From the IMG/VR virus record IMGVR_UViG_3300028178_000026, positions 1 to 20,971 of that record: a stretch of DNA of 20,971 bases. One strand, 5' to 3'. The position numbers and the translations under genes are program-made. This DNA comes from a virus. The notes under the pieces are model-generated. The model did not search any database, was not told the DNA's origin, and saw only the letters and a list, made by a program, of their open reading frames with translations. Below, one piece after another: positions 1,638 through 20,262 of the stretch (position 1 is its first letter; each line of letters starts with the position of its first letter).

Positions 1638-1648
1638 TTTTTCAGGTC

Positions 1649-2653
1649 ATGGTGATGAGCCTACCAGTCTCAGGCGTTCCAATTCCGGGGCCACAGCCGA
1701 ATCAGAGGGCGCAAAAGCGGTATCAGATGGCGGTGCGGCGGTCGGAAGTAGCGAGGCTGTTGGACTTAGAGTGGAGCCAAGTGGCGATAGCGCACGAGCT
1801 TCACGTCAACCCGGCGACGATAAGCGAGGATGTGAAGTGGCTGAAGGCACAGTGGCATGAGCGGGCTTATGAGAGCTTCGAGTGTTTCATGGCGAAGCAG
1901 ATAAGCCGGCTGGATGCGCTCTATGCCAAGTCTCAGGAATCGTTCAATGCGTCGAAGAAGGATGGTGAGGAAACGGATGTAACGCAGATGGCGATGGCGA
2001 AGAAGTCGGCGGGCGGTAAGTGGGAACCGCAGGACGCGCATGTTATCGAGCAGCGGCAGCACTTCAAGAAGAATCACGCGGGCGACCCGGTATGGATTGG
2101 CATGGGTATCTCGGTCATCCGTGAGCAGAACAGGATGCTTGGCGTAGGGGTGACAGCGAGGCGGGAGGCTGGCGGAGAGGATGCGCCTATAGGCGGGGCG
2201 GTCTTGACGGATAACGTGTATGTCTTGCTCCCTGAGAAGGACGGGACGCTCTCGTTGCCGGCGCATCTTCGACCGGGCGGGGGTGTAGGGCCGTCCACGT
2301 TGCCCGTAGCGCCCTCTGAAGAAGCGGGGGCGGGGTCTGGTGGCGGCCCCGGCGTGGAAGTCATCGAAGCGGTGACGCTGGAAGTGCCGGCGTCGCAGGA
2401 TGCTGAGAAGTTGATTGTGGCAGGCCGGGTGATTGCCGGCAAGATGAAGAAGAAACTGAAACGGAGGATACGGAAGTATGCAAGACGAAAACCAAAAGCA
2501 GGAAATGGTGACGCTGGACAAGGCGGCGGCGCTGGCGCTGGCGGAGGACATGGAGCGGGTGACAGCCCGGCTGCGGATGCTGGTAACGGTGCCATCGGCG
2601 TTCAGGCCGGTGCCGAAGATACAGCCGGCGGAACTGATGCGGCCCCGGCCTGA
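1649..2653 (+). CDS. Putative terminase small subunit
   Basis: The product is 334 residues. Residues 24-70 form a helix-turn-helix region (ARLLDLEWSQVAIAHELHV, NPATISEDVKWL), as expected of a small terminase that recognises the packaging site. A helical middle section (about 75-165) includes QHFKKNHAGDPVWIGMGISV and could mediate oligomerisation. A very basic patch follows at about 262-280 (KMKKKLKRRIRKYARRKP). The last 58 residues are low-complexity Gly/Ala and are encoded where another frame, starting at 2478, carries a better-looking protein, so the tail is probably a by-product of overprinting. The position upstream of the large terminase supports the call, but the fold is inferred from the HTH and context only; a general transcription regulator is the alternative. 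ATG codons at 1649 and 1655 are both possible starts; an AGG at 1643-1645 favours the second slightly. Confidence 0.62.
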   Translation: MVMSLPVSGVPIPGPQPNQRAQKRYQMAVRRSEVARLLDLEWSQVAIAHELHVNPATISEDVKWLKAQWHERAYESFECFMAKQISRLDALYAKSQESFNASKKDGEETDVTQMAMAKKSAGGKWEPQDAHVIEQRQHFKKNHAGDPVWIGMGISVIREQNRMLGVGVTARREAGGEDAPIGGAVLTDNVYVLLPEKDGTLSLPAHLRPGGGVGPSTLPVAPSEEAGAGSGGGPGVEVIEAVTLEVPASQDAEKLIVAGRVIAGKMKKKLKRRIRKYARRKPKAGNGDAGQGGGAGAGGGHGAGDSPAADAGNGAIGVQAGAEDTAGGTDAAPA

Positions 2654-2738
2654 AGTGGTTATGCCCGTGCCAATGACGAAAGCACCGGAGTCATCCGGCG
2701 AACGCTGTCCGCAGGCGTGCGGGCCGGCGACTGCATGA
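2478..2738 (+). CDS. Small protein overlapping the terminase small-subunit gene
   Basis: The 86-residue product starts at an ATG preceded by GGAGG (2463-2467) and overlaps the last 176 bases of the previous gene in a different frame. Residues 1-38 look like a soluble amphipathic helix (QDENQKQEMV, DKAAALALAEDMERV), followed by a Pro-rich part with repeated VP and RP. Third codon positions in this frame are strongly G/C, as in its neighbours, whereas the competing frame gives Gly/Ala low complexity. Its stop forms an ATGA overlap with the next gene at 2735, which argues that it is really translated. I do not recognise a family. Its position between small and large terminase suggests a packaging accessory, but that is only context. 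Confidence 0.6.
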   Translation: MQDENQKQEMVTLDKAAALALAEDMERVTARLRMLVTVPSAFRPVPKIQPAELMRPRPEVVMPVPMTKAPESSGERCPQACGPATA

Positions 2739-2971
2739 CCATGAAGGCGAAGCGTCACAAGCACCTGAAAGCCCGCGTGCTGGCGGAGCTTGGCAAGGGG
2801 CCGGCTACGAGCAGGGACATCGAGGATGCGACGGGCATCCCGGTTCGCCAAGTCTCGACAACGCTCAACGAGTTGCGCGAGCGTGGTGACGTGACGCGCC
2901 GTGGCAAGGTTGGCTATGAGGAAGGCGGGCATTGGGGGTATATCTGGATGGTGAAAGGACACTCGAAATGA
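2735..2971 (+). CDS. Winged-helix DNA-binding protein
   Basis: The ATG at 2735 is chosen because it overlaps the preceding stop as ATGA; a GTG at 2717 in the same frame is less likely. The 78-residue protein has a basic N-terminus (KAKRHKHLKARV) and then a textbook winged-helix pattern: ATSRDIEDATGI as helix 2, PVRQVSTTLNELRERGDVT as recognition helix, and TRRGKV with a tyrosine/tryptophan-rich strand (GYEEGGHWGYIW) as the wing. The likely role is DNA binding, either as a small regulator of the late operon or as part of packaging-site recognition alongside terminase. The stop overlaps the next start by ATGA (2968-2971). Confidence 0.72.
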   Translation: MTMKAKRHKHLKARVLAELGKGPATSRDIEDATGIPVRQVSTTLNELRERGDVTRRGKVGYEEGGHWGYIWMVKGHSK

Positions 2972-3129
2972 AGCGCGGAGCGAAGATGAAACTATGCCGG
3001 CGGTGCAAGAACCTGTTTCCGTCTCCACGAGTGAACAAGGGATACTATCGGCTGTGCGAGGTTTGCTACGAAGAAACTCACGGCGCGGGGCGGTTCAGTC
3101 ACGCTGAAGAATTGAAATTCGCACGCTGA
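2968..3129 (+). CDS. Small zinc-ribbon protein
   Basis: The product is 53 residues. Two CxxC knuckles, C10/C13 (LCRRC) and C30/C33 (LCEVC), separated by 16 residues, predict a single structural zinc site. The N-terminus is basic (MKRGAKMK). The ATG at 2968 shares ATGA with the previous stop, and the stop at 3127-3129 shares TGATG with the large terminase start, so this gene sits in a fully coupled chain. Small zinc-ribbon proteins next to terminase genes are usually nucleic-acid binding or structural; there is no evidence here of HNH nuclease residues. Function is inferred only from the motif and position. Confidence 0.68.
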   Translation: MKRGAKMKLCRRCKNLFPSPRVNKGYYRLCEVCYEETHGAGRFSHAEELKFAR

Positions 3130-4643
3130 TGCCCGCCACGTCCAAAACGAAACCGCCCGCTCCGCCGGCTACGCCTACGCCGGCCCCGGTCGAGCCGCGT
3201 GTGATTCAACCGCAAGTCGGGCCGCAGACTCGATTCCTTCAGAGCAAGGCTGACATCCTCATTTTTGGCGGGGCGGCTGGCGGTGGCAAGACGTATGCCC
3301 TGCTACTGGAGCCGCTGTTTCACCGTCGCAATCCTCTCTACGCAGCCGTCATATTCCGCCGCACGTTTGGTCAAGTCACCAACCCCGGCGGCCTGTGGGA
3401 TACTGCAAGGGAAATCTACCCGTTCACGGGCGCTCGCGGCTCGTTGCACGCAGGCGGGTTCAAATGGCCGTGCGGGTCGCGTGTGAAGTTCTCTCACTTG
3501 GAACATGACAAGAACGTGCTGGACTGGCAGGGGTCAGCGTTGACGTGCATCATGTTCGACGAGTTGACGCACTTCACTGAATACGCCTTCTGGTATCTGC
3601 AATCACGCGCACGCGGTATGTCTGGAATCCCGGCCTATGTGCGGGCGACCTGCAACCCGCAGGCGAAGGGATGGGTGAAGGACTTTATCGCATGGTGGAT
3701 TGACCCGGTGACGAAGAAGCCGATACCGGAGCGGAGCGGCATCGTGCGGTTCATGGCGCGTGAGAACAACAAGATAGTTTGGGCAGATACGCGGGAAGAA
3801 CTGATGAAGCGGTTTGGTGAGAAGTCTGTGCGCTCAGTGACGTTCATCCCGTCGAAGCTGTCTGACAACAAGCTCTTGATGGAGAAAGACCCGTCTTACG
3901 AAGCAACGCTCCGCTCGTTGAGCCGGGCCGACCGTGAGGAACTGCTTGAGGGCAAGTGGGGTGTTGACCGTGGCGTAGGCACCTTGTTCAAGAGGGAATG
4001 GTTCAAGGTGCTGCCGGCGGTGCCGGGTGATGTGAAGCTTGTGCAACAGATTCGGTATTGGGACAGGGCCGCCACGGAAGCGACGGGCGAAGTGGGCAAT
4101 GACCCTGATTGGACAGCGGGCCTGCGGCTGGCAAAGGGGAGTGATGGCAAGTTCTACATCCTTCACGTTGCCCGGTTCCGTAGCCGACCGCTTGCGGTCA
4201 AGGACTCGATTCACTCTTACGCATCACAGGACGGGTGCGCGGTCGGACTTGAACACGACCCCGGCTCGGCTGGCGTGGCGGAGATAGATGACCTAGTGCG
4301 GCACTTGGCAGGCTTCATCGTCCGCACGTTCAGACCATCCGCTGATAAGGCGACGCGGGCGAAACCGGTTTCGATTCAGGCGGAAGCTCACAACGTCATC
4401 ATCATTGCAGAGCCGGGGGCGACATGGGTTGATGACTTGCTTTCTGAGTTGGAGGAATTTGACCCTGAGAAGATGTCCCACGCGCATGATGACCAAGTGG
4501 ATGCGCTGTCTGGCGCGTTCAACGCATTGTCGAGCGGCGTTAAGCTGTTCTTTTCATGGGCGGGCGAAGGGGCGCGTAACGAGGAACGGCTGAAGGATAA
4601 GACTCTTAATCCTGAGAGCGTGCTATACGGGCAGAGCGACTGA
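3129..4643 (+). CDS. terL: Terminase large subunit (packaging ATPase and nuclease)
   Basis: This 504-residue protein powers DNA translocation into the prohead and cuts the concatemer. After a Pro-rich leader (about 1-22) the ATPase domain shows a Walker A GGAAGGGKT at 47-55, Walker B CIMFDE at 140-145 with D144/E145, and a TCNP coupling segment at 174-177. The C-terminal RNase H-like nuclease domain has candidate acidic residues at D312 (RYWDRAAT), E375 (GLEHDPGSAG) and the D454/D455/D458 cluster (HDDQVDALSGAF). Length and motif order are typical. It starts inside the stop of the zinc-ribbon gene. This is the anchor identification for the phage module. The ending at 4643 is followed by 85 non-coding bases before the unusual TTN genes rather than directly by the portal gene. 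Confidence 0.95.
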   Translation: MPATSKTKPPAPPATPTPAPVEPRVIQPQVGPQTRFLQSKADILIFGGAAGGGKTYALLLEPLFHRRNPLYAAVIFRRTFGQVTNPGGLWDTAREIYPFTGARGSLHAGGFKWPCGSRVKFSHLEHDKNVLDWQGSALTCIMFDELTHFTEYAFWYLQSRARGMSGIPAYVRATCNPQAKGWVKDFIAWWIDPVTKKPIPERSGIVRFMARENNKIVWADTREELMKRFGEKSVRSVTFIPSKLSDNKLLMEKDPSYEATLRSLSRADREELLEGKWGVDRGVGTLFKREWFKVLPAVPGDVKLVQQIRYWDRAATEATGEVGNDPDWTAGLRLAKGSDGKFYILHVARFRSRPLAVKDSIHSYASQDGCAVGLEHDPGSAGVAEIDDLVRHLAGFIVRTFRPSADKATRAKPVSIQAEAHNVIIIAEPGATWVDDLLSELEEFDPEKMSHAHDDQVDALSGAFNALSSGVKLFFSWAGEGARNEERLKDKTLNPESVLYGQSD

Positions 4644-4728
4644 CGATTTCGTTGTTGACGGTGGCGGGTGCAGGTGATACACCGTTGCCATCGAAAGCAA
4701 CCGTCAATCACTCAATCACAGGAGTAGC
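4644..4728 (+). promoter_or_regulatory. Intergenic inverted repeat with a promoter-like pair
   Basis: This gap after the large terminase holds a perfect 8-base inverted repeat: TTGACGGT at 4655-4662 and ACCGTCAA at 4700-4707. Inside it, TTGACG could serve as a -35 element and GATACA (4676-4681) as a -10 element, though the 15-base spacer is short. AGGAG near 4720 is a good ribosome site for the next gene. It could be an operator/promoter for the TTN gene pair or a weak RNA hairpin. Confidence is low because the promoter match is poor. Confidence 0.3.
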
Positions 4729-5553
4729 ATGAACCCGCTCAATCGCCTAACCGAAATCGCCCGTGTTGGAATATCTGCAACCCTCACTCTCTGCCTCATG
4801 GCGCTCGCGCTCGCATTCACTCCGCCGCCGGTCTGCGCTGAAGGCGCGAGTCAGCCGGTGATTCAGGCGACACAAGTTCCCATTACTACGACTACGACTG
4901 TTGCCCCGGCGTGGCAGTTGTTTCCGTCGCGTCAGCAACGCTTCTACGGCCGCATCGAGCAGTTGAGCGGCACTACCAACGGCGGCCTCGTATCCTTCAC
5001 AAGCAACAACTTTACTTTCCTCACGTCCGCGTCCGGTGCGATTGTGACCAACACGGCGGCGGTGCCAGGCTCCTACTCGACCGCTACGAACATGGTTGTT
5101 GCCGGCACGCTGACGCCATACGCGATTACGGTTACGGGGGTGACTTACACGGTGACGCCGTGGCTGTTCCGCACTACGAACACGCCCGCCGCGTCGCAGA
5201 CCTTCACCATCACCAATCTCGCCAATAGCGCGACGATGCTGACGAACGGCCTTGCCATCGTGCCGCTCATCACTACGAACACGTTCACCAAGACGAATAC
5301 GAGTTGGCAGGTTACAACCAACCTGACTACGGTGCTGACGACCAACGGCGTCTTGTATTCCGGCTGGCTTGTGCAGCCCGGTCAACCGTTGGTTCTACCG
5401 AGATATGCCAGTGACCCGGCCAAGCCTGACGTGTTGAACAAGGTCTGGCCCGGATCCATCTTCGTGACGCCGCTCGGATGGGATGTGACTACGAATCTTC
5501 CCGCAGTCTCAATCACGAACGTCTTTACCGGCACCGACATCTTCCAACAGTAG
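4729..5553 (+). CDS. Secreted TTN-rich protein 1
   Basis: The product is 274 residues and belongs to no family I can name. Residues 1-37 are a convincing Sec signal peptide: basic start, hydrophobic TLTLCLMALALAF, and a VCA-EG cleavage site. The mature chain is Thr/Asn-rich beta-type sequence with recurrent TTN, TNT and TN steps, for example PLITTNTFTKTNTSW at 179-193 and LTTNGVLYSG at 203-212. RFYGRIEQLSGT (71-82) parallels TSARIWNVSGT in the next protein, and VQPGQPLVLP (215-224) parallels LAPGADYPLP there. The two genes therefore share a C-terminal domain and a repeat. The LxPG...LP pattern resembles the beta-sandwich end domain of some virion surface proteins. A signal peptide is unusual for a protein between terminase and portal. 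Surface decoration, host-envelope modification or a moron are all possible. AGGAG supports the start. Confidence 0.7.
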   Translation: MNPLNRLTEIARVGISATLTLCLMALALAFTPPPVCAEGASQPVIQATQVPITTTTTVAPAWQLFPSRQQRFYGRIEQLSGTTNGGLVSFTSNNFTFLTSASGAIVTNTAAVPGSYSTATNMVVAGTLTPYAITVTGVTYTVTPWLFRTTNTPAASQTFTITNLANSATMLTNGLAIVPLITTNTFTKTNTSWQVTTNLTTVLTTNGVLYSGWLVQPGQPLVLPRYASDPAKPDVLNKVWPGSIFVTPLGWDVTTNLPAVSITNVFTGTDIFQQ

Positions 5554-6531
5554 AGTGCCGTAATCCTCAACCTCTCTTTGGAGAACGGTAATGACAACCC
5601 TACTTTCAAAACTCAATGCGGCGCTGGTAGCCGCTGTGATTCTCGGCTGTGCGGTTGTCGCGCTCTCGCGGCCCGCCACGGTAGAACAGCGAGTGGCAGT
5701 GTCTCAGTCGAAGATGACGCCCGACACCGACCACTATGTTTGGCCGGTGTTCAGCACCAACAACGAAGTGGATACCAACGTCATTCTCTCAATGACGCAA
5801 CGAGTGATTCTGTCGCAGTGGTTTACCAACGACCTCGCCTTCCGAACCATCGTCCCTTATGTGACCACGAACACGTTGCACTACACCAATGCGGACTACG
5901 GTTTCCTCTACACGACCAACGCGCTGCCAGATGAAACGAAGTTTTGGACGGCTACCAACATCCTCGACACACTGCTTACTTACACGAACGCTCTCGACAT
6001 CACCACCAACTTCATCGGGCCGTATCTCAGCACGAATCTGAATGTGATGACCAACGTGGTGTTTGTCCAGACGCAGCTTGTCGTTACCGCCTTGTGGTTT
6101 ACGAACGGCGCGGAGGTCTGGCCGTTTGTGACCACCAACAAAGTCACGAAGACCAACACGGACTACGGATTTACCAACGCCATTACGCAGGCGGGGCCGA
6201 ATCCAAACACCTACTGGCATCACACCAATATCGTTGACTCTCTGGTAAGGACAACGAACTCCATCTTCTACCTCGAAAGGACGCGCTCGCTTTTCACGCA
6301 GGTCTTGCCTCGCCGGGATAGGCCGAGGACTTCAGCGCGTATCTGGAACGTGTCTGGCACCAACGTAGTGTTGCTCTGCCGAACGACTGATAGCATCGTG
6401 TGGGATACCGCGCCTACCGGAGAGATTCAGACGAACGTGATGCGTCTGGTTGTTACCAATGCCTTTTCTGGTATCGTGTCCACGAACCGTATCTGGACGA
6501 ATCTGGTTGGCGTGCTGACGACCAACGGCGT
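5332..6531 (+). repeat. 20-base direct repeat linking the two TTN genes
   Basis: An identical 20-base stretch occurs at 5332-5351 and at 6512-6531; each encodes VLTTNG at the equivalent point of the two proteins. It marks homologous C-terminal domains and may reflect recent duplication or gene conversion. The coordinates span from the first copy to the second. Confidence 0.75.
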
Positions 6532-6703
6532 TGCAAGTTACCTCGGCGTGCCGCTGGCTCCCGGCGCGGACTATCCGCTGCCGTCCACAGGCAACGGGCT
6601 GGTTTCATCGGCGGAACTGTTTGGCGTGATACCCGGCAACACCAACGCGACTATGGGAACAAACGTCATTCTCGTCATCGAGGATTACGACTCCAACGAC
6701 TAA
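5591..6703 (+). CDS. Membrane-anchored or secreted TTN-rich protein 2
   Basis: The product is 370 residues. Residues 8-26 form an N-terminal hydrophobic segment (NAALVAAVILGCAVVAL) that could be a signal anchor, or a poor lipobox with C20. Residues 73-137 and 164-227 are a tandem duplication: QWFTN ... PYVTTNTLHYTNADYGF ... KFWTATNILDTLL and LWFTN ... PFVTTNKVTKTNTDYGF ... TYWHHTNIVDSLV. Residues 247-370 form a C-terminal domain shared with the upstream protein (ARIWNVSGT, VLTTNG, LAPGADYPLP, ELFGVIPG), resembling small beta domains of virion proteins. The aromatic and TTN spacing suggests a repetitive beta structure. GGAGAA lies upstream of the start. Its function is unknown; fibre-like, adhesin-like or host-surface roles fit equally well. 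It is not a normal part of a terminase-portal junction. Confidence 0.7.
   Translation: MTTLLSKLNAALVAAVILGCAVVALSRPATVEQRVAVSQSKMTPDTDHYVWPVFSTNNEVDTNVILSMTQRVILSQWFTNDLAFRTIVPYVTTNTLHYTNADYGFLYTTNALPDETKFWTATNILDTLLTYTNALDITTNFIGPYLSTNLNVMTNVVFVQTQLVVTALWFTNGAEVWPFVTTNKVTKTNTDYGFTNAITQAGPNPNTYWHHTNIVDSLVRTTNSIFYLERTRSLFTQVLPRRDRPRTSARIWNVSGTNVVLLCRTTDSIVWDTAPTGEIQTNVMRLVVTNAFSGIVSTNRIWTNLVGVLTTNGVASYLGVPLAPGADYPLPSTGNGLVSSAELFGVIPGNTNATMGTNVILVIEDYDSND
5807..6271 (+). repeat. Tandem duplication of about 65 residues in TTN protein 2
   Basis: Codons 73-137 (5807-6001) and 164-227 (6080-6271) encode two copies of the same unit. Conserved features in order are WFTN, a proline-aromatic-V-TTN step, TN-x-DYGF, an aromatic followed by T or H and TN, I-(L/V)-D-(T/S)-L, and a closing TN. 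A shorter version of the central step also occurs in TTN protein 1 at residues 176-193. The copies have diverged at DNA level, so the duplication is not recent. Confidence 0.75.
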
Positions 6704-6736: not shown

Positions 6737-8050
6737 ATGGGACTGTTGCGCGACATCAGAACGGCGGTGTTCGGGCGTAAGATAACCCGCATCGAAGACA
6801 TCTTCGGCGGTGTCTTGTCCGGGCTGACGGTTGACCAACTGCGCGACTACGAGAGTTACCTTCGCGCATCCAGCAAGAAGGTTTGGGCCAGCTGGAAGTC
6901 CATTGACCTGAAAGCGCAGGCGTGCGCTGAAACGAAGATAGCCTTCATGTCAGGCAAGACGGAGGCAGCGCAGAAGCCGGTTGAAGCTCCAAAGGAACTT
7001 GCGGCCCTCATGGACAGGCCAAATGACCATGAGACGTTCCATGACATCATCTACAAGACCGTGTTCCACATCGCGGCGACGGGTAACGCCTACTGGTATA
7101 AGAACGAGGCGACGGTAACGGGAGAGCGGCCCCGTAGCATTATGCTTCTCAACCCGAAGCGCGTGAAGATTGTCTGCGATGATCGCCGGGGTCTGACGGG
7201 CTACATCTACAAGACGAACGGCAAGGACGTGCCGCTCCAGCCGCAGGAAATCATCCACTTCAAGAAGCCGCACCCAAACAATGACTGGTATGGGCTGGGT
7301 GAGTTGGAGGCGGCGGAAACCTTGTTCCAAGAGAACCTTGACCGTCAGGCGTGGAGCCGGAACTTCTGGAAGCACGGCGCGTCGCCATCTGGCGTGCTTG
7401 TGATGAAAGAGCGAGTTGAGAGCCAGACGGAGTTCGACAAGCTGAAGGCACGGTGGGATGAGCAATACTCTGGCGTGAACAACGCGGGCAAGACGGCGAT
7501 TCTGACGGGCGACTGGAGCTACCAGCAACTCGGCTTGACCGCTCAGGAAATGCAGGACATTGAGCGGAGCAAGTTCAACGTCGAGAGCATCGCGTGTGTG
7601 CATGGCGTGCCGCTGTCTGTGCTTGGAGTGAAGGACGCGGCGAATTACGCGACGGCTGAGATTGATGGCGTTCGGTTCCGCACGACGGCGGTGAGGCCAA
7701 TACTGAAGTTGCTCGAAGCGGTTCTCAACAGCAAGTTCATGCCCGGCTACGGCCAGAACATCCGGTTGCAGTTTTGCCTGTCAGGTCTGGTCAACACGGG
7801 CGCGATGATGGAGCTTATCAAGGCCGGGTTTGACCGTGGCATCTTCACGCCGAACCAATGCCTTGCCATGCTTGGCGAGCCAACAGTGGATGAAGACCCG
7901 CTGATGGATAGCCGATTCATTTCTTCGATGTATGTCCCGATGGAGATTGCGGGCGCGGCCTCTCTGGACAAGGCAGAGGCGGCGGGCCGGGCGCTCGTTG
8001 AGAAACAGCTTCACTCTCTGATTCACGGCGACAAGCCAAAGGGGGATTAA
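6737..8050 (+). CDS. Portal protein, HK97 family
   Basis: The 437-residue product forms the dodecameric channel at the capsid vertex through which DNA enters and leaves. Family hallmarks are visible: WASWKSIDLKAQACAETKIAF (51-70), HIAATGNAYWYK (111-122), a PKRVKIV strand followed by EIIHFKKPHP (171-180) and YGLGELEAAE (185-194), then FWKHGASPSGVL and ERSKFNVESIACVHGVPLSVLGV, which matches the region before the crown where HK97-type portals carry an RxxxIAxxFGVPxxLLG-like motif. Length is normal for the family. It is preceded by a GGAGAAAA ribosome site and followed four bases later by the minor head gene. Nothing is missing. The conventional neighbour upstream would be terminase, but the TTN genes intervene. 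Confidence 0.93.
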   Translation: MGLLRDIRTAVFGRKITRIEDIFGGVLSGLTVDQLRDYESYLRASSKKVWASWKSIDLKAQACAETKIAFMSGKTEAAQKPVEAPKELAALMDRPNDHETFHDIIYKTVFHIAATGNAYWYKNEATVTGERPRSIMLLNPKRVKIVCDDRRGLTGYIYKTNGKDVPLQPQEIIHFKKPHPNNDWYGLGELEAAETLFQENLDRQAWSRNFWKHGASPSGVLVMKERVESQTEFDKLKARWDEQYSGVNNAGKTAILTGDWSYQQLGLTAQEMQDIERSKFNVESIACVHGVPLSVLGVKDAANYATAEIDGVRFRTTAVRPILKLLEAVLNSKFMPGYGQNIRLQFCLSGLVNTGAMMELIKAGFDRGIFTPNQCLAMLGEPTVDEDPLMDSRFISSMYVPMEIAGAASLDKAEAAGRALVEKQLHSLIHGDKPKGD

Positions 8051-9067: not shown

Positions 9068-10195
9068 ATGCCACTTCAACCGCTCAACCGAAAGTTCACA
9101 GTCCTGCGGCAAGCACCCGTTGCTCCCCCTGTCGCCAAAGGTGATACTACCGACCATCACGCCGACGATGATGCCGCTACCCGTGCGGCGCGTGAAGCGT
9201 GTGCCAAGTCGCTTCACAAGGCGGCGGCGTGCGCTGAGAAGTGTGACTCGAAGGATGCGGGTCACAAGTGCATCACAAAGGCCACCGCGTCCATGTGCCG
9301 TCAGGTGGCAGCGATGGTGATGCCTGACTTGGAGTTGAACCTTGCGGCGGATGAGGAACTGAAGTGCGGGCCGGGCTGCCGTTGCTCTGCGGATGTGTGT
9401 TGCGAAAACGGCCCCAAGTGCGGTGACGTGTCTGCATTGCTTGGCAGCGTCGTGAAGATGATGCGGGATTGCGCCGACCACCATGACTCGACGGCGGCAG
9501 GCTCCGCCGGGGCCGGGGCGGTGCCGTCTGATGACCAATCCGCTACGGATGCGGAAGTGCGCTCCGCCCTCGGTCACACCGCCAAGCGGTTTGACGTGTC
9601 GCTGGCGTTCAAGGACGCGGATAGCATCCAGTCAACGGCCTTGAAGGGGCCGGATGGTCACGTCCTTGACTACCGTGATGTGAAGTTCACGGGCTACCTC
9701 TCGACGTTCACGAACATGACGCCGGCTGACCGTCAAGGGGATACCGTTGTCAACGGCGCGTTCGCTGAAACCATCGCACGGTTCAAGCTCAACCCGATGA
9801 TGCTGCGCGACCACTACAACAGCACGGAGAATGTCGCCGGCTCGTTCGATTCAATCTCAGAGGATGCCGCCGGCCTGAAGGTCATTGGCCGGGTGTCCAA
9901 CTCCCCGCAGATGATAAACGCCCGGTTTGACATCGTGGAAAAACATCTTCGCACGATGAGCATGGGCGGCATCTTCCACTACAACGATGATGGCCGAACC
10001 ATCTTCAAGGTGGACTTGTGGGAAGGCTCGTTGACGCCTATCCCGGCCAACCCGGATGCGCGAATCAACACTCGCGCCCTGACCCGGAGCGAAGTAAAGC
10101 GGGCGAAATCTTTCATGCAGGTCGCGGCGCAAGCCGGCGGCGGTCGCGGTGAAACCAACGGGAGTAACGGTGGCGGCTCCGGTGCAACAAAGTGA
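9068..10195 (+). CDS. Prohead protease with cysteine-rich N-terminal region
   Basis: The ATG at 9068 follows AAGGA at a good distance; the frame is open upstream but only inside the previous gene. Of 375 residues, about 174-345 match an HK97-type prohead protease: VKFTGYLSTFTNMTPADRQGDTVVNGAF, MMLRDHY with candidate catalytic H249, LRTMSMGG with candidate nucleophile S298, and the closing WEGSLTPIPANPDA (318-331). It would trim the scaffold part of the capsid protein and itself. Residues 41-135 are odd: 12 cysteines (C45, 55, 59, 68, 77, 100, 104, 106, 111, 112, 118, 135) with several histidines, partly helical with C at 3-10 residue spacing. This is reminiscent of small copper-binding four-helix proteins but not a clear match. 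A Gly/Ser/Asn-rich tail ends the protein. The protease call is firm; the metal-binding idea is inference. Confidence 0.85.
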   Translation: MPLQPLNRKFTVLRQAPVAPPVAKGDTTDHHADDDAATRAAREACAKSLHKAAACAEKCDSKDAGHKCITKATASMCRQVAAMVMPDLELNLAADEELKCGPGCRCSADVCCENGPKCGDVSALLGSVVKMMRDCADHHDSTAAGSAGAGAVPSDDQSATDAEVRSALGHTAKRFDVSLAFKDADSIQSTALKGPDGHVLDYRDVKFTGYLSTFTNMTPADRQGDTVVNGAFAETIARFKLNPMMLRDHYNSTENVAGSFDSISEDAAGLKVIGRVSNSPQMINARFDIVEKHLRTMSMGGIFHYNDDGRTIFKVDLWEGSLTPIPANPDARINTRALTRSEVKRAKSFMQVAAQAGGGRGETNGSNGGGSGATK

Positions 10196-10253
10196 CTTGC
10201 GAAAACGGAATGCCTCACCGTCTTGAGGCGCTAACTGAACAGAAGGAAACATC

Positions 10254-11906
10254 GTGAAAACATTCAAAGACGCCAAGGCCGCTTATGAAGCGGCTGTGGC
10301 AGCCAAGAAAGACGCGGCGGAACTCGCCACGTTGAAACAGACGATGGACGATGCCTTCACCGCTCTGAGCGCCGAAGACAAAAAGACGCTGGAAGGTGAG
10401 AGCAACATCGTGACGCTTGCGGACATCCGCGCCGCCATCGTTGACGCCGTGAAAACGCAGATTGAAGCCTCCATGCCGAAGGGCGCGACCGCCCCGACGC
10501 TGGACGACATCAAGGCTGCGGTCGAAGCCGCGTTCAAGACCCACACCGAAGCGAAGAAAGTTCCGACCACGGATGAAATCAAGTCCATCGTCGGCGCTAT
10601 CGTGACGGAGCAGGTCAAGAACATCCGCGTGCCGGGCAAGCAGCTTGGCAATGCGAATGACCCCGACCCGAATGCGAACCCGGAAGGCCGTATCTCCATT
10701 CCGACCACGCTCCGAAAGGACAATCTGCCGCTTCACCTGAAGCAGCTTTTCAACTTGATGACGTGGGGCAAGACCAACACGGGCGTTCCGCACAAGAGCA
10801 TCCTGAATGATGGCATTCGGGACAGCGACTTGCAGGCGGCCTGTCAGAAGGGTGAGCGTGAGCTTGACCGCGTGCGCGGTAAGGCCATGAGCATGACTCC
10901 GGTGGAGTTCGTCGCTCACGGGCGCAAGACGTTGGCGACCGCCGACAACGGCGATTTCGTGCCTGTGGACTTGTCGAGCGAGTTGCAGCGCCGGCTCTAC
11001 CTTGAGTCGGTGCTTGCGGGCTTGCTCGCCAGCCGCGAGTTGGAAATGCCGTCGCCCGATTATCGTCTGCCGCTGACGACCACGTTGCCCTCGTTTGGCT
11101 TGTTCTCCACGGAGAACACGCTGGCGATTGGCAGCGACCCCGGCACGGACGGTATCCACCTCATCGCCAAGAAGGTGATGGGCCGTTGCGACTACTCATA
11201 CGAGATTGACGAGGACAGCATCATCCCGATTCTGCCGCTCATCACATCCTCGCTGGCGCAGTCAGCGGGCCTTGCCCTCGACAGCATGATTATCAATGGT
11301 GACACCACCGCGACCCACATGGACAGCGACATCGCCGCGAATGCCGGCCTGCCGACGAACATGGTGGCTGCGGAGAAGGCGTGGAAGGGATTTCGCAAGT
11401 TCGCGCTTGCGGCCAGTCTCGTCAGCGACTTCTCGACCGGTGGCATCAGCGATGCCAACCTGCGGACGCTTCGCAAGAAGCTCGGCAAGTATGGTCTGAG
11501 GCTGAATGGCTCAACCATCTGGCTCGTTGGCCCCAACGGTTACAGCGACATGCTCGGCATCCCGCTCGTTCAGACGCTCTACAGCTACGGCCCGCAAGCG
11601 ACGGTGCTTACCGGTGAACTCTCGCAGTTCAGCGGTATGCCCATCATCGCTTCGGAGCGTTGCCGTGAGGACTTGAATGCCTCTGGCGTCTATGACGGCT
11701 CGACCGTCACGAAGGGTTCCGTGCTGGCGGTGAACCTCGACCGGTTCCTGATGGGCCGGCGTCGGGAGTTCACGGTGGAAGCGTTCCGCGACCCCCGCCT
11801 CCAGCAGACCAACATCATCGCGGCGTTCCGTCGGGCGTTCAGCCCCATCGAGACGCCATCCGCGACTGTGCCGACCGTTGCGCTCGGCTACAACTACGCG
11901 GCTTAA
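10254..11906 (+). CDS. Major capsid protein, HK97 fold, with N-terminal scaffold domain
   Basis: The GTG start follows AAGGAAA. Of 550 residues, 1-125 are helical and charged (KDAKAAYEAAVAAKKDAAEL), as in HK97 delta domains that act as an internal scaffold and are removed by the upstream protease. Within them are three related units: LADIRAAIVDAVKTQIEA, LDDIKAAVEAAFKTHTEA and TDEIKSIVGAIVTEQ. The shell domain runs from about 225 to the end: ATADNGDFVPVDLSSELQRRL, a hydrophobic spine helix (SSLAQSAGLALDSMIING), NLRTLRKKLGKYGLRLNGSTIWLVGPNGYSDML, GMPIIASERCRED, and FLMGRRREFTVEAFRDPRLQQT, all typical of Phage_capsid members. Position after the protease is canonical. A structured non-coding leader follows the stop. 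Confidence 0.92.
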   Translation: MKTFKDAKAAYEAAVAAKKDAAELATLKQTMDDAFTALSAEDKKTLEGESNIVTLADIRAAIVDAVKTQIEASMPKGATAPTLDDIKAAVEAAFKTHTEAKKVPTTDEIKSIVGAIVTEQVKNIRVPGKQLGNANDPDPNANPEGRISIPTTLRKDNLPLHLKQLFNLMTWGKTNTGVPHKSILNDGIRDSDLQAACQKGERELDRVRGKAMSMTPVEFVAHGRKTLATADNGDFVPVDLSSELQRRLYLESVLAGLLASRELEMPSPDYRLPLTTTLPSFGLFSTENTLAIGSDPGTDGIHLIAKKVMGRCDYSYEIDEDSIIPILPLITSSLAQSAGLALDSMIINGDTTATHMDSDIAANAGLPTNMVAAEKAWKGFRKFALAASLVSDFSTGGISDANLRTLRKKLGKYGLRLNGSTIWLVGPNGYSDMLGIPLVQTLYSYGPQATVLTGELSQFSGMPIIASERCREDLNASGVYDGSTVTKGSVLAVNLDRFLMGRRREFTVEAFRDPRLQQTNIIAAFRRAFSPIETPSATVPTVALGYNYAA

Positions 11907-15180: not shown

Positions 15181-15897
15181 ATGCCGAACACCGTTCAATC
15201 TGGAGTGTTGGACTTGCTGGCGCAGGACATCGCGGATGCGTTGCTGGCCGACCTATTCTTTGCTGACATCCCCGTAGTGCGCGAGAAGTCGGCTTACGAG
15301 CCGGGCGATGAACACTACGAGGACTTGCTGGCGCAGGGGATGAATGATGCGGGGCGGGTTGTGGGCGTTCAGGTGCCAATGCCTGAGTTCAAGTATCCAG
15401 ACCAACTCGGCGTGTTCGCTGACATCCCGTTGAGCGGTATCGTGAAGGCGTTTCCACATCATCCATCCGGCGGCCCGTCCGCGCACCTGATTCTGGCAGC
15501 ACTCTACGCAACCCTTCACACCTACAAGTCCAGCATCGTCTCGAAGGTTGTTGTTGTGGAGAAGGGCGGCGGTGACTCGAAAGGCATGGTGGAGGATGAT
15601 GGCTTCTACAATCTTCGATGGCACTTGAAGGTGGGGGGGGCGCTTACAAAGGAAGTGTTGGTGTTGCCTGACCTTGACATCGAGGTAGTCGGGTCTGGAT
15701 TCCCGTTGACGATAACGCTGTCATGTGATACACCGGGGGCTGTGATATTCTTTACCACCAACGGAAAGCATCCCTCTCCGCCAGTCGGCACGCTCTACAC
15801 CGCGCCGTTTCAAATCACTTCCGCAGCCACGCTGAAAGCTCGCGCATGGCTGCCGGGATATGTCGCAAGCGAGCTACTGAAGCAGACCTATCCCTAA
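15181..15897 (+). CDS. Tail-completion-like protein with C-terminal chitobiase-type domain
   Basis: The product is 238 residues. Residues 8-125 have an alpha/beta pattern (DIADALLADLFFADIPVVRE, GRVVGVQVPMPE, LSGIVKAFPHHP, LILAALYATLHTY) that I associate with proteins encoded just before tail tube genes, probably neck or tail-completion factors. Residues 175-237 match the CHB_HEX_C-type beta-sandwich found on chitobiases and surface proteins: LTITLSCDTPGAVIFFTTNG, TLYTAPFQITSAATLKARAW, GYVASELLKQTY. No catalytic part of a glycosidase is present, so it is an add-on domain that may contact carbohydrate or simply decorate the tail. Eight consecutive Gs (15633-15640) lie between the two parts. The ATG is one base after the previous stop, with GAGG upstream. 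Confidence 0.66.
   Translation: MPNTVQSGVLDLLAQDIADALLADLFFADIPVVREKSAYEPGDEHYEDLLAQGMNDAGRVVGVQVPMPEFKYPDQLGVFADIPLSGIVKAFPHHPSGGPSAHLILAALYATLHTYKSSIVSKVVVVEKGGGDSKGMVEDDGFYNLRWHLKVGGALTKEVLVLPDLDIEVVGSGFPLTITLSCDTPGAVIFFTTNGKHPSPPVGTLYTAPFQITSAATLKARAWLPGYVASELLKQTYP
15633..15640 (+). other. Run of eight G inside the gene for the two-domain tail protein
   Basis: GTGGGGGGGGCG places eight Gs at codons 151-154. A shift of either -1 or +1 here meets a stop within about a dozen codons, which would yield a product lacking the chitobiase-type domain. It may be a slippage site, or merely a sequencing weak point; the reading frame shown is intact. Confidence 0.35.
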
Positions 15898-17762: not shown

Positions 17763-19310
17763 ATGCCAACTCCAACCTATCTGGCGAAGATTCAAGTGCG
17801 GCGCGATACGGATGCCGTGCGCCAAACACTTACGCTCTCATCGGGCGAAATGTTTTTTACCACTGACACGAAGCTCCTATACGTTGGTGATGGCACTACG
17901 GTAGGCGGTATCCCGGCTGCTGGCGGGGCGATGCCGGAGAATCCGCTGGCCGTGACACACGGCGGCACGGGGTCAACAAGTCAAGGTGATGCGCGAACAG
18001 CCCTCGGACTCGGCACGGCTGCCACGAAGGATACCGGCACGGATGCCGGGGATGTCCCTATTCTTGGAGACGGTGGCAAGCTCCCCGCCGTGGACGGGTC
18101 ATTGCTCACGAATCTGCCAAGCGGTAGCGGTGATGTTGTCGGACCGGCCAGCGCAACGGATGGAGCCGTGGCGGTGTTCAACGGAACGGGCGGCAAGACA
18201 CTCAAGAACGGCGTCGTGCTTGGCGGCGCTGCCACGAAGGATGTAGGCACGTCCACCGGCACAGTCTGCGCTGGCGATGATGGCCGGCTATCGGATGCTC
18301 GCACTCCAAGCTCTACGCTGGCACATAAAGCCAGCCACGCCACCGGCCAAGGTGATGCGTTGTCGCCGTCTGATATTGGCGCGGCCACCAGCGGCCACAA
18401 CCACGACAGCGCCTATGAGCCGAAGACGTTGACCACCAAGGGCGACCTACTCACGTTCAGCACAGCCGCCGCCCGCTTGGCGGCTGGAGATAACGGGCAG
18501 GTGTTGACTGCGGACAGCGCGCAGACGCTCGGCGTCAAGTGGGCGACTCCAAGCGGGGGCGCAAACGCTCAGGATGTAGCGGACGAAGCCGCCATGCTCG
18601 CGCTCACGTCAAAGCCGCTCGGCTATCTGGCTCTGCGCGCCGATGACCACAGCATCTACATGCTCGCCATCGTTGCGCTCATTGCGGATGCGGCTGGATG
18701 GGTAAAGGTTGCCAACGACGTGCTACCGTTCATCGCAGCGTTCTCAGCGGTTCCGACAGAGAGTGGAACAGAACAAGTTGGCGAAACTCTCACCGCCGCC
18801 AGCGGCACCTACGCGGGCCATCCCACGCCGTCGCACTCGGCGTGGAAGTGGCAGGTGTCCGACACCGGAACAGGCGGATGGTCTGACATCGAGGGCGCGA
18901 CGAGCGGAACCTACGTTCCTGTCACCGGCGACGTGGACAAGTATCTTCGCGTCGGCGAGAAATGCAGCAACGGTGTCGGTGAATCTGGATGGAGCTACAG
19001 CGCCGCCACCGGCGCGATTGCGGCAGCCGGCGAAGTGGATGTCTATGTCCCCAATGTTTCACTCGTTAGCGGCGGCGTCCTTTACGCAGAGAACGAAGTT
19101 GTCAGCGGGACAACTGGCACACTGGCGACCGTGGATGGTCGCCATTGGAGCGGTCACGTCACTTCTGTTGGTGAAGGCGGCGTCATTACCGGCTTCAACC
19201 TCGACGATACCGGCTATTATCAGAGCACGGGCAAGCCGTCGAATCAGGAAGAAACCGCGAGCAACGGTAGCGGCGTTGGTGCCACGTTTGACCTGACGTG
19301 GAATGCCTAA
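17763..19310 (+). CDS. Tail fibre / receptor-binding protein, multi-domain
   Basis: The 515-residue product starts with an Mtd-like N-terminal trimerisation segment (AKIQVRRDTDAVRQTLTL, SGEMFFTTDTKLLYVGDGT, 8-45). Next come fibre repeats rich in Gly/Thr with THGGTGSTSQGDARTALGLGT (65-84), GAATKD twice (155-160 for one) and GHNHDSAYEPKTLTTKGDLL (211-230). Residues 327-418 form an Ig-like domain (QVGETLTAASGTY, WKWQV, SDIEGATSGTYVPVTGDVDKYLRV), and 426-514 a C-terminal domain (SLVSGGVLYAENEVVSGTTGTLA, EGGVITGFNLDDTGYYQSTGKPSN, GSGVGATFDL) resembling the insert in the tail tube protein. Such trimeric fibres bind the host surface and set host range. AAAGGAAACC precedes the ATG. There is no reverse transcriptase or variable repeat nearby, so a diversity-generating system is not indicated. 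Confidence 0.82.
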   Translation: MPTPTYLAKIQVRRDTDAVRQTLTLSSGEMFFTTDTKLLYVGDGTTVGGIPAAGGAMPENPLAVTHGGTGSTSQGDARTALGLGTAATKDTGTDAGDVPILGDGGKLPAVDGSLLTNLPSGSGDVVGPASATDGAVAVFNGTGGKTLKNGVVLGGAATKDVGTSTGTVCAGDDGRLSDARTPSSTLAHKASHATGQGDALSPSDIGAATSGHNHDSAYEPKTLTTKGDLLTFSTAAARLAAGDNGQVLTADSAQTLGVKWATPSGGANAQDVADEAAMLALTSKPLGYLALRADDHSIYMLAIVALIADAAGWVKVANDVLPFIAAFSAVPTESGTEQVGETLTAASGTYAGHPTPSHSAWKWQVSDTGTGGWSDIEGATSGTYVPVTGDVDKYLRVGEKCSNGVGESGWSYSAATGAIAAAGEVDVYVPNVSLVSGGVLYAENEVVSGTTGTLATVDGRHWSGHVTSVGEGGVITGFNLDDTGYYQSTGKPSNQEETASNGSGVGATFDLTWNA

Positions 19311-19342: not shown

Positions 19343-19732
19343 ATGATGAGTCACAGACAAATCCAGAAGGCAAAGAGGCGGGCGGTAGTGCTGACGCTCT
19401 TTTTCACCGCTGGCGCGTTCGCAAGCGCGGCGATACCACAAGGTGTAATCGTGGCCGCGACAGGCGACGGCGGAGAGACGGTATTTACCGTGCCTATGAC
19501 GTGGATGATGACAGGCTTGTGCGGAATCGTCGCTACGTTTGGGGTCTATCTGATAAACCGGCTCGATAAGCTGGACACGTCCGTAGCGGCACACGCCGTC
19601 CGCTTGGCGCATGGTGATGAACAACTGAAAATCATGCGCGAGGTCAAGGATGACGTGAGGCACATTAAGGAACACGGATGCACGCGCTTCGCTGACGTTC
19701 ATCTGCCGAAGTCACCGCCGCCGCAGTATTGA
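19343..19732 (+). CDS. Small two-TM membrane protein with cytosolic helix (holin-like candidate)
   Basis: The product is 129 residues. A basic start (SHRQIQKAKRR) precedes a hydrophobic segment at about 14-39 (AVVLTLFFTAGAFASAA ... VIVAA), a polar loop with VFTVP, a second segment at 53-71 (TWMMTGLCGIVATFGVYLI), then a charged helix (RLDKLDTSVAAHAVRLAHGDEQLKIMREVKDDVRHIKEH, 73-111) able to form a coiled coil, and a Pro-rich end. Two TM segments plus a charged tail fit a holin or an inner-membrane lysis partner, but also other phage membrane proteins. The ribosome site is weak. It opens a coupled cassette of small envelope proteins. Confidence 0.6.
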   Translation: MMSHRQIQKAKRRAVVLTLFFTAGAFASAAIPQGVIVAATGDGGETVFTVPMTWMMTGLCGIVATFGVYLINRLDKLDTSVAAHAVRLAHGDEQLKIMREVKDDVRHIKEHGCTRFADVHLPKSPPPQY

Positions 19733-19738
19733 GGCACC

Positions 19739-19891
19739 ATGAAATGCGAGTGCCGTCCACCGCACGGAACACCGCCTATGCTGTTCGTGAAGTCGCTGAA
19801 GGTTGTAAAATGGTGGCCGTTGATTGTGAGGGCGACGATGTTTTGCGGAGTCAGGTTTGACTTCGTGTTTGGAAAGAAAGGAACTACATGA
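19739..19891 (+). CDS. Small basic 50-residue protein
   Basis: This short gene fills the gap between two others. ATG at 19739 follows GAGG after the preceding stop, and its own stop overlaps the next ATG as ATGA at 19888-19891. The product begins MKCECRPPHG and continues with VKSLKVVKWWPLIVRATMF, a hydrophobic-basic patch that may sit on the membrane surface. It has three cysteines (3, 5, 36). No family is recognised. Both junctions look like genuine translational coupling, which is the main evidence; composition is also unlike a random frame. Confidence 0.55.
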   Translation: MKCECRPPHGTPPMLFVKSLKVVKWWPLIVRATMFCGVRFDFVFGKKGTT

Positions 19892-20262
19892 AACGAATAC
19901 TGATTGCGGTAGCGGTGTTTGCTCTGGCCTGCGCGTGCAACACGCCACGGCCAGCGGGAAACTTCAACACGTCCACCATCTTCGGCGTGGACATCACGGC
20001 ATGGGATGCGGCGGCCAACAGTCCGAAGGTAATGTTTGGACTTGTGCGGCATGAGAGCGTGCAGTTGGACACGAACGCCATTCAAGGCACGACGTTCACG
20101 AAGGCCACTGACTTTGAGGACGATGGCTGGTTTGAAGGCAACCGCGCCCACACAGTCCTATCCTTTGGGAAGGATGCAGTTCACCAGCCGAGCGCAGCAC
20201 AACAGATGCCAAGCGCGAAGGGTAGTAATGTCGTCTGGCAGACCGCTCAACCCCTGCCATGA
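19888..20262 (+). CDS. Putative lipoprotein
   Basis: The 124-residue product has a short Sec/lipoprotein leader: MKRILIAVAVFALACAC, with lipidation possible at C15 or C17. The mature part is soluble (GNFNTSTIFGVDITAWDAAANSPKVMFGLVRHESVQLDTNAI, then WFEGNRAHTVLSFG). A lipoprotein in a cassette with a small membrane protein suggests an envelope-acting role, for instance an outer spanin or a superinfection-exclusion factor, but the sequence lacks a decisive sign. Start and stop are both ATGA-coupled to neighbours. Confidence 0.65.
   Translation: MKRILIAVAVFALACACNTPRPAGNFNTSTIFGVDITAWDAAANSPKVMFGLVRHESVQLDTNAIQGTTFTKATDFEDDGWFEGNRAHTVLSFGKDAVHQPSAAQQMPSAKGSNVVWQTAQPLP

Follow-up and report, generated by a model that had tools for sequence, protein, structure and literature searches.

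Two Thr-Asn-patterned proteins with export-type N-termini encoded between the terminase and portal genes of a phage: candidate exported surface proteins

Two genes at the terminase-portal junction

The window considered here, that is, the whole stretch of 20,971 bases making up the IMG/VR virus record IMGVR_UViG_3300028178_000026, raises the question of what role two export-type proteins might play when their genes lie within a phage head operon. The stretch contains a siphophage-like structural operon on the plus strand, in which profile searches recognized terminase, portal, head-morphogenesis protein, S78 protease, HK97-type capsid, connectors, tail proteins and a fibre with an Mtd_N domain. 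The initial annotation of this DNA described two genes inserted between the large terminase and the portal, and this placement was borne out: intact open reading frames for both (denoted here as P0001 and P0002) occupy the junction, and profiles confirm the terminase and the portal on either side (Table 1). The four genes lie on the same strand and are separated, in order, by 85, 37 and 33 bases; good Shine-Dalgarno sequences precede those of P0001 (AGGAG-4-ATG) and P0002 (GGAG-7-ATG), and their codon usage is that of the adjoining genes (GC3 0.74 and 0.72, compared with 0.63-0.80).

The gap ahead of the P0001 gene holds an imperfect inverted repeat, which had been counted in favour of a moron. 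Its RNA fold is only slightly better than that of shuffled sequences (z -1.8) and no promoter or terminator was called at 4645-4717, and on these two grounds the repeat was rejected as either element. It lends no weight to the moron idea, and whether it has a function is doubtful. Searches for RNA families and tRNAs within the window found none.

Table 1. Coordinates of the features discussed, in the window unless a locus is named
Feature	Coordinates	Strand	Basis or context
Large terminase (upstream neighbour)	3129..4643	+	PF03237 5e-20, PF17289 2.6e-12, PHROG 979 3.9e-140
Imperfect inverted repeat, arms 4645-4665/4697-4717	4645..4717		76% complementary, within the 85-base gap
P0001, exported TN-rich protein 1 (274 aa)	4729..5553	+	Intact ORF, Shine-Dalgarno, signal-like N-terminus, TN excess
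P0001 signal-peptide-like segment, aa 1-37	4729..4839	+	Positive n-region, KD15 2.19, VCA/E AXA-type site
P0001 stretch shared with P0002, aa 177-243	5257..5457	+	BLASTP E 9e-5
P0002, exported or membrane-anchored TN-rich protein 2 (370 aa)	5591..6703	+	Intact ORF, Shine-Dalgarno, hydrophobic N-terminus, TN excess
P0002 hydrophobic export/anchor segment, aa 8-26	5612..5668	+	KD15 2.92, contains ILGC
P0002 duplication, first copy, aa 60-135	5768..5995	+	Smith-Waterman vs shuffles; MAFFT
P0002 duplication, second copy, aa 152-227	6044..6271	+	Smith-Waterman vs shuffles; MAFFT
P0002 stretch shared with P0001, aa 283-350, with VLTTNG and LxPG	6437..6640	+	BLASTP E 9e-5
Portal (downstream neighbour)	6737..8050	+	PF04860 5.3e-62, PHROG 12 4.3e-67
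L012 secreted FN3-like gene	3240-3986	-	Terminase-portal interval, opposite strand
L012 exported beta protein	4171-4659	+	Terminase-portal interval; judged by eye, missed by the rule-based scan
L014 exported FN3-like protein	1640-2149		Directly after portal
L020 exported FN3-like protein	2227-2817		Terminase-portal interval
L364 exported protein	9977-10480		After major capsid gene
L364/L366 row of four Sec-signal, TN-rich fibre/tailspike-like genes	L364:15470-17530, L366:138-4518		Fibre position

Export-type N-termini

The N-terminus of P0001 has R6 and R12, a hydrophobic core that averages 2.19 on the Kyte-Doolittle scale over 15 residues and, after residue 37, a signal-peptidase-I-like site, VCA/E; it has no lipobox. 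That of P0002 carries K7 and a stronger core (2.92), and its cleavage is ambiguous: the segment may be a signal anchor, contain a weak signal peptidase I site, or use a lipobox-like ILGC at residue 20, which is followed by further hydrophobic residues. Both proteins show the features of Sec export (a positively charged n-region and a hydrophobic core, together with a cleavage site or an anchor) in a home-made rule-based scan, whose positive calls (4% overall) in many cases proved false when inspected. The export or anchor sequences first suggested for the two proteins are supported by these segments and also by the TN signature described below, which marks the exported proteins of this phage group. 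Structure prediction, proposed at the outset as a check, gave no usable model when AlphaFold was run on single sequences without an alignment (pLDDT 38 for P0001 and 30 for P0002); in the low-confidence P0001 model, the N-terminal helix alone exceeds pLDDT 70.

Internal repeat, shared stretch and search for homologues

P0002 contains a duplication that had escaped the earlier reader, consisting of a 76-residue unit whose two copies reach a Smith-Waterman score of 150 (2000 shuffles gave at most 64) and 43% identity in a MAFFT alignment. The likeness between the C-terminal parts of the two proteins is real but modest (BLASTP 35% over 68 residues, E 9e-5), and their Smith-Waterman score of 85 exceeds the highest value obtained from 2000 shuffles, 77. 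The common C-terminal domain claimed initially therefore stands in part: a similar stretch exists, but the distance from 'RI..SGT' to VLTTNG is 127 residues in P0001 and 58 in P0002, so that these two motifs do not make up a single collinear domain. When the LxPG tail was searched for as a regular expression in the other loci, P0002 itself was the sole match; the virion look of this tail is, therefore, an impression by eye.

No convincing relative of either protein was found in Pfam, PHROGs, NCBIfam, PADLOC or PDB sequences; specifically, Pfam and PHROG profiles detected no capsid-binding domain, the Pfam OMP families gave no match, and PADLOC reported no defence system. A tblastn search of 50,697 GenBank phage records found no match, and pattern scans of IMG/VR with P0001, P0002 and the repeat profile returned nothing convincing, empty scans of this type excluding close relatives only. 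Likewise, no convincing relative was found for P0002 in 388 Verrucomicrobiota genomes or for P0001 in 293 genomes of one order. The matches of P0001 in the order of the metagenome-assembled genome G001 (best E 1.7e-5) were taken as chance; at L313, the best locus read, the ORFs are of an ordinary housekeeping type and include a low-complexity stretch rich in T. Insofar as no homologue turned up in these searches, they favour the suggestion that P0001 and P0002 form a new two-member family.

Exported proteins in related phages

Searches with terminase, portal and capsid delimited a clade formed by the window, L011/L363, L012, L014, L018/L364 and L020, whose members have a portal-capsid-connector block in common. 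In five of the six, the window included, the structural operon has genes for beta proteins that are rich in T and N and bear a Sec signal, and no such secreted genes were found in the nearly complete L363. The minus-strand gene of L012 looks like a genuine moron insertion. The FN3-like proteins of L014 and L020 resemble each other (phmmer 4e-12); the signal of the latter depends on a non-ATG or internal start, received no call in the rule-based scan and is the least certain, and its weak match to the Hoc-like PHROG 10993 (0.0033) is the sole FN3-like profile match of this kind. The row of genes at the fibre position of L364/L366 encodes a 686-aa protein with YadA_head (2e-4) and Phage_depo_C-like stretches, a 602-aa GDSL/SGNH hydrolase (1.2e-8), a 284-aa protein and a 581-aa protein with a CHB_HEX_C (chitobiase C-terminal) domain (2.7e-12) and what looks by eye like a beta-helix. 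For the SGNH domain of L366:138-1946, the matches are virion proteins annotated as neck-passage or Hoc (PHROG 7918, 4.7e-8; PHROG 9703, 2.4e-5).

BLAST comparison of the clade's exported proteins with one another revealed clear relatedness only within the L014/L020 and P0001/P0002 pairs, so they do not constitute one sequence family. The recurrence lies in the type of protein and the type of operon, whereas the family and the locus vary. A constant position, which the initial annotation had named as a possible sign of a system, is seen only loosely: secreted genes lie between terminase and portal in L012 and L020, but they lie elsewhere in L014 and L364. At 178 loci with a related terminase, the other exported calls nearby were mostly false positives inside portal ORFs.

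A directional Thr-Asn signature

The Thr/Asn patterning noticed initially proved to be pronounced. The mature part of P0001 contains 12 TN dipeptides against 3.2 expected from 5000 residue shuffles (3.5x), and that of P0002 contains 25 against 5.4 (4.7x); TTN occurs six times in each (0.6 and 0.9 expected, respectively). The codons are mixed, and therefore the pattern is not a simple DNA repeat. When the mature parts of 11 exported proteins from five related phages were pooled, TN was counted 113 times, against 31.9 +/- 5.0 in within-protein permutations (maximum 50 in 2000), a ratio inflated by the fact that these proteins were partly picked with TN-richness in view. By the same procedure, NT was not enriched in these proteins (29 against 31.7), and 23 non-exported proteins of the same phages showed 23 TN against 21.2 expected. 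Selection by signal only gave TN ratios of 3.9 to 6.3 in L012, L014 and L018, compared with 0.2 to 0.9 in their other ORFs, so the contrast is not due to the choice of proteins alone. The ratio was 1.01 in secreted ORFs (n=119) at other terminase-related loci. Within the window, the ordinary, non-exported fibre (17763-19310; Mtd_N, 1.9e-11) has 12% T and a TN ratio of 0.6, and the lipoprotein-like protein at 19888-20262 shows no TN excess. P0001 and P0002 are, in sum, real and unmatched by known families, and the TN signature makes of a single-locus oddity a group pattern.

Probable host lineage

The same signature was found in the order of G001 (RA.bin74, Verrucomicrobiota), whose secreted ORFs contain 130 TN against 78.3 and 78 NT against 78.4, the other ORFs of the order having 259 TN against 217. 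A phylum-wide sample of secreted ORFs from Verrucomicrobiota gave 185 against 186. The TN signature is directional, largely specific to exported proteins and common to the host-type secretome; it therefore supports the export of P0001 and P0002 and a host in or near G001's order. The TN-biased secreted proteins of this order share with P0001 and P0002 this directional enrichment, mainly in exported proteins, but no homologue of the two is among them, the P0001 matches being weak. The verrucomicrobial host guessed at the start gains support from the shared bias; a prophage search with the portal against Verrucomicrobiota found none, and one weak, distant portal was seen in 293 genomes of the order. 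The window phage probably infects verrucomicrobial bacteria, with a host in or near G001's order, the link being a statistical one. Among the dipeptides of this order's secreted ORFs (genome pieces L252-L256 and L323-L362), TN ranks third in enrichment, behind MK and HC, and NT is not enriched.

Possible roles of P0001 and P0002

We favour, with confidence little better than even, the reading that P0001 and P0002 are accessory Sec-exported proteins of the late operon that act outside the cytoplasm of a verrucomicrobial host. The function proposed for them at the surface would probably be adhesive or receptor-masking. They would be co-transcribed with the head genes and hence made late; P0001 would lose its signal segment and end up free in the periplasm or at the surface, P0002 would stay anchored or be lipidated, and the TN-patterned beta domains may form a surface adhesin or receptor mask. 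The process most plausibly altered would be adsorption rather than head assembly, and late expression would make receptor masking or superinfection exclusion, or else the adhesion of cells and virions to a matrix, the most economical functions. The beta-rich repeats, together with the FN3, SGNH and chitobiase-type modules of the relatives, suggest that surface polysaccharide may be bound or trimmed. Against a surface role count the missing homologues, the low pLDDT values, the error-prone signal rule, the lack of such genes in L363 and the absence of a TN excess in the window's own lipoprotein-like protein. Furthermore, several exported proteins of the relatives carry domains of virion decoration or fibre type (SGNH, Phage_depo_C-like) that would also fit a virion role.

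Indeed, P0001 and P0002 might be virion decorations made through Sec, folded and perhaps modified outside the cytoplasm and then, during lysis or later, attached to virions as adhesins of the head or neck, an explanation that we consider unlikely even if several observations agree with it. The genes sit within the head module, the LxPG-type C-terminus looks virion-like (by eye only), and the relatives contribute the GDSL/SGNH matches to neck-passage-structure and Hoc-annotated proteins, the YadA_head and Phage_depo_C-like stretches, the weak Hoc-like match in L020 and the fibre position of the exported genes in L364; in principle, such decorations can bind finished capsids. Sequence profiles, however, found no capsid-binding domain in either protein, the window phage has an ordinary, non-exported Mtd_N fibre, and we know of no tailed phage decorated via exported proteins. 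Rather improbable is the wider proposal that a group of verrucomicrobial phages makes virion-type adhesins, fibres, hydrolases and head decorations through Sec, so that the outer decorations would arise outside the cytoplasm, and adds them to virions when the cell lyses or afterwards, with P0001 and P0002 as head or neck members; such decorations could possibly undergo host secretory modification, for which the TN motif might serve.

Virion proteins of tailed phages are assembled in the cytoplasm, and the terminase-portal position would suit two ordinary proteins of this sort, in which the N-terminal helix is internal or assembly-related and not an export signal. We give this little credence, since the pooled TN counts set the exported proteins apart from the 23 non-exported ones, T-rich fibre included, the signature matches the host-type secretome, and classical signal peptides occur independently in many related proteins. 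Adjacent genes for one possibly anchored and one secreted product also recall the envelope proteins of lysis pathways, spanin- or holin-like, but the putative lysis region (19343-19732, 19888-20262) is far away, and proteins of 370 and 274 residues with beta-type sequence and no family match are unlike spanins, which makes this very unlikely. Least probable of all is that host genes were joined on at an assembly junction, or that the contig is misassembled: the host-like TN signature would agree with either, but on the single contig that represents this phage the genes lie in an unbroken co-directional operon with gaps of 33-85 bases and neighbour-like GC3, and comparable genes exist in related phage contigs from other samples.

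Comparison with known systems

Superinfection-exclusion surface lipoproteins are encoded by phages such as T5 (Llp) and phi80 and N15 (Cor); most proteins of the Ltp, Llp and Cor type are small and are expressed early or from the prophage. Ltp of Streptococcus thermophilus phage TP-J34 is a phage-encoded surface lipoprotein acting in this way (PMC3952083). P0001 and P0002 resemble this type as products of phage accessory genes with an export-type N-terminus and, as candidates, in envelope-directed action. They differ in their larger size, TN-patterned beta sequence and location inside a head operon, and P0001 also in lacking a lipobox; no sequence relation was found in Pfam, PHROG, NCBIfam, PADLOC or the 50,697 phage records. 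Lom, the late-operon outer-membrane barrel of lambdoid phages, is likewise an exported product of a gene inside a structural operon, but P0001 and P0002 match no OMP family in Pfam.

To our knowledge, known Hoc, Ig/FN3 and SGNH decorations have no Sec signals. Hoc and the Ig/FN3 or SGNH decorations of heads and necks (PMC10385173, PMC7602432) are, like P0001 and P0002, beta-rich products of accessory genes in the head module; FN3-like and SGNH modules occur in the related phages, but the two proteins themselves match no Hoc PHROG or Pfam profile. Unlike tail fibres with an attachment N-terminus of the Mtd_N type, they start with an export-type segment. A missing signal peptide has been taken as support for the phage origin of adhesin-like proteins (PMC6199706); the phage group described here has signal-bearing adhesin- or fibre-like genes inside its structural operon, with a composition of host-secretome type. 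If these proteins act at the cell surface, they would be an unexplored set of phage-encoded modifiers of that surface, from a phylum whose phages have seldom been studied; should they end up on virions, they would represent a new route of virion decoration. The TN signature can also be computed from sequence, and as a marker it could help to assign uncultured phages to a host order and to pick out phage proteins that are exported.

Other observations on the window and the loci

A signal-bearing protein, beta-helix-like by eye and without TN excess, is encoded downstream of a portal-like gene at L002:5904-7658, which suggests that signal-bearing adhesins occur outside the clade. In L364, the portal gene (2350-4803) is split by an intein-like insert (Hom_end_hint, LAGLIDADG), and the terminase-portal interval encodes a 65-aa membrane protein (2053-2250). 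Ahead of the terminase, the window encodes tandem ParB-like proteins (192-944 and 1017-1637) whose matches are to the N-terminal region of a model for a type II methyltransferase. At its other end, a gene for a transmembrane protein (19343-19732) is followed by the lipoprotein-like gene (19888-20262), possibly as a lysis cassette. Finally, a tail-region protein (15181-15897) bears a terminal Fn3_assoc/CHB_HEX_C domain (4.4e-11), which is also present in L366 and, as a stretch detected by tblastn, in L364.
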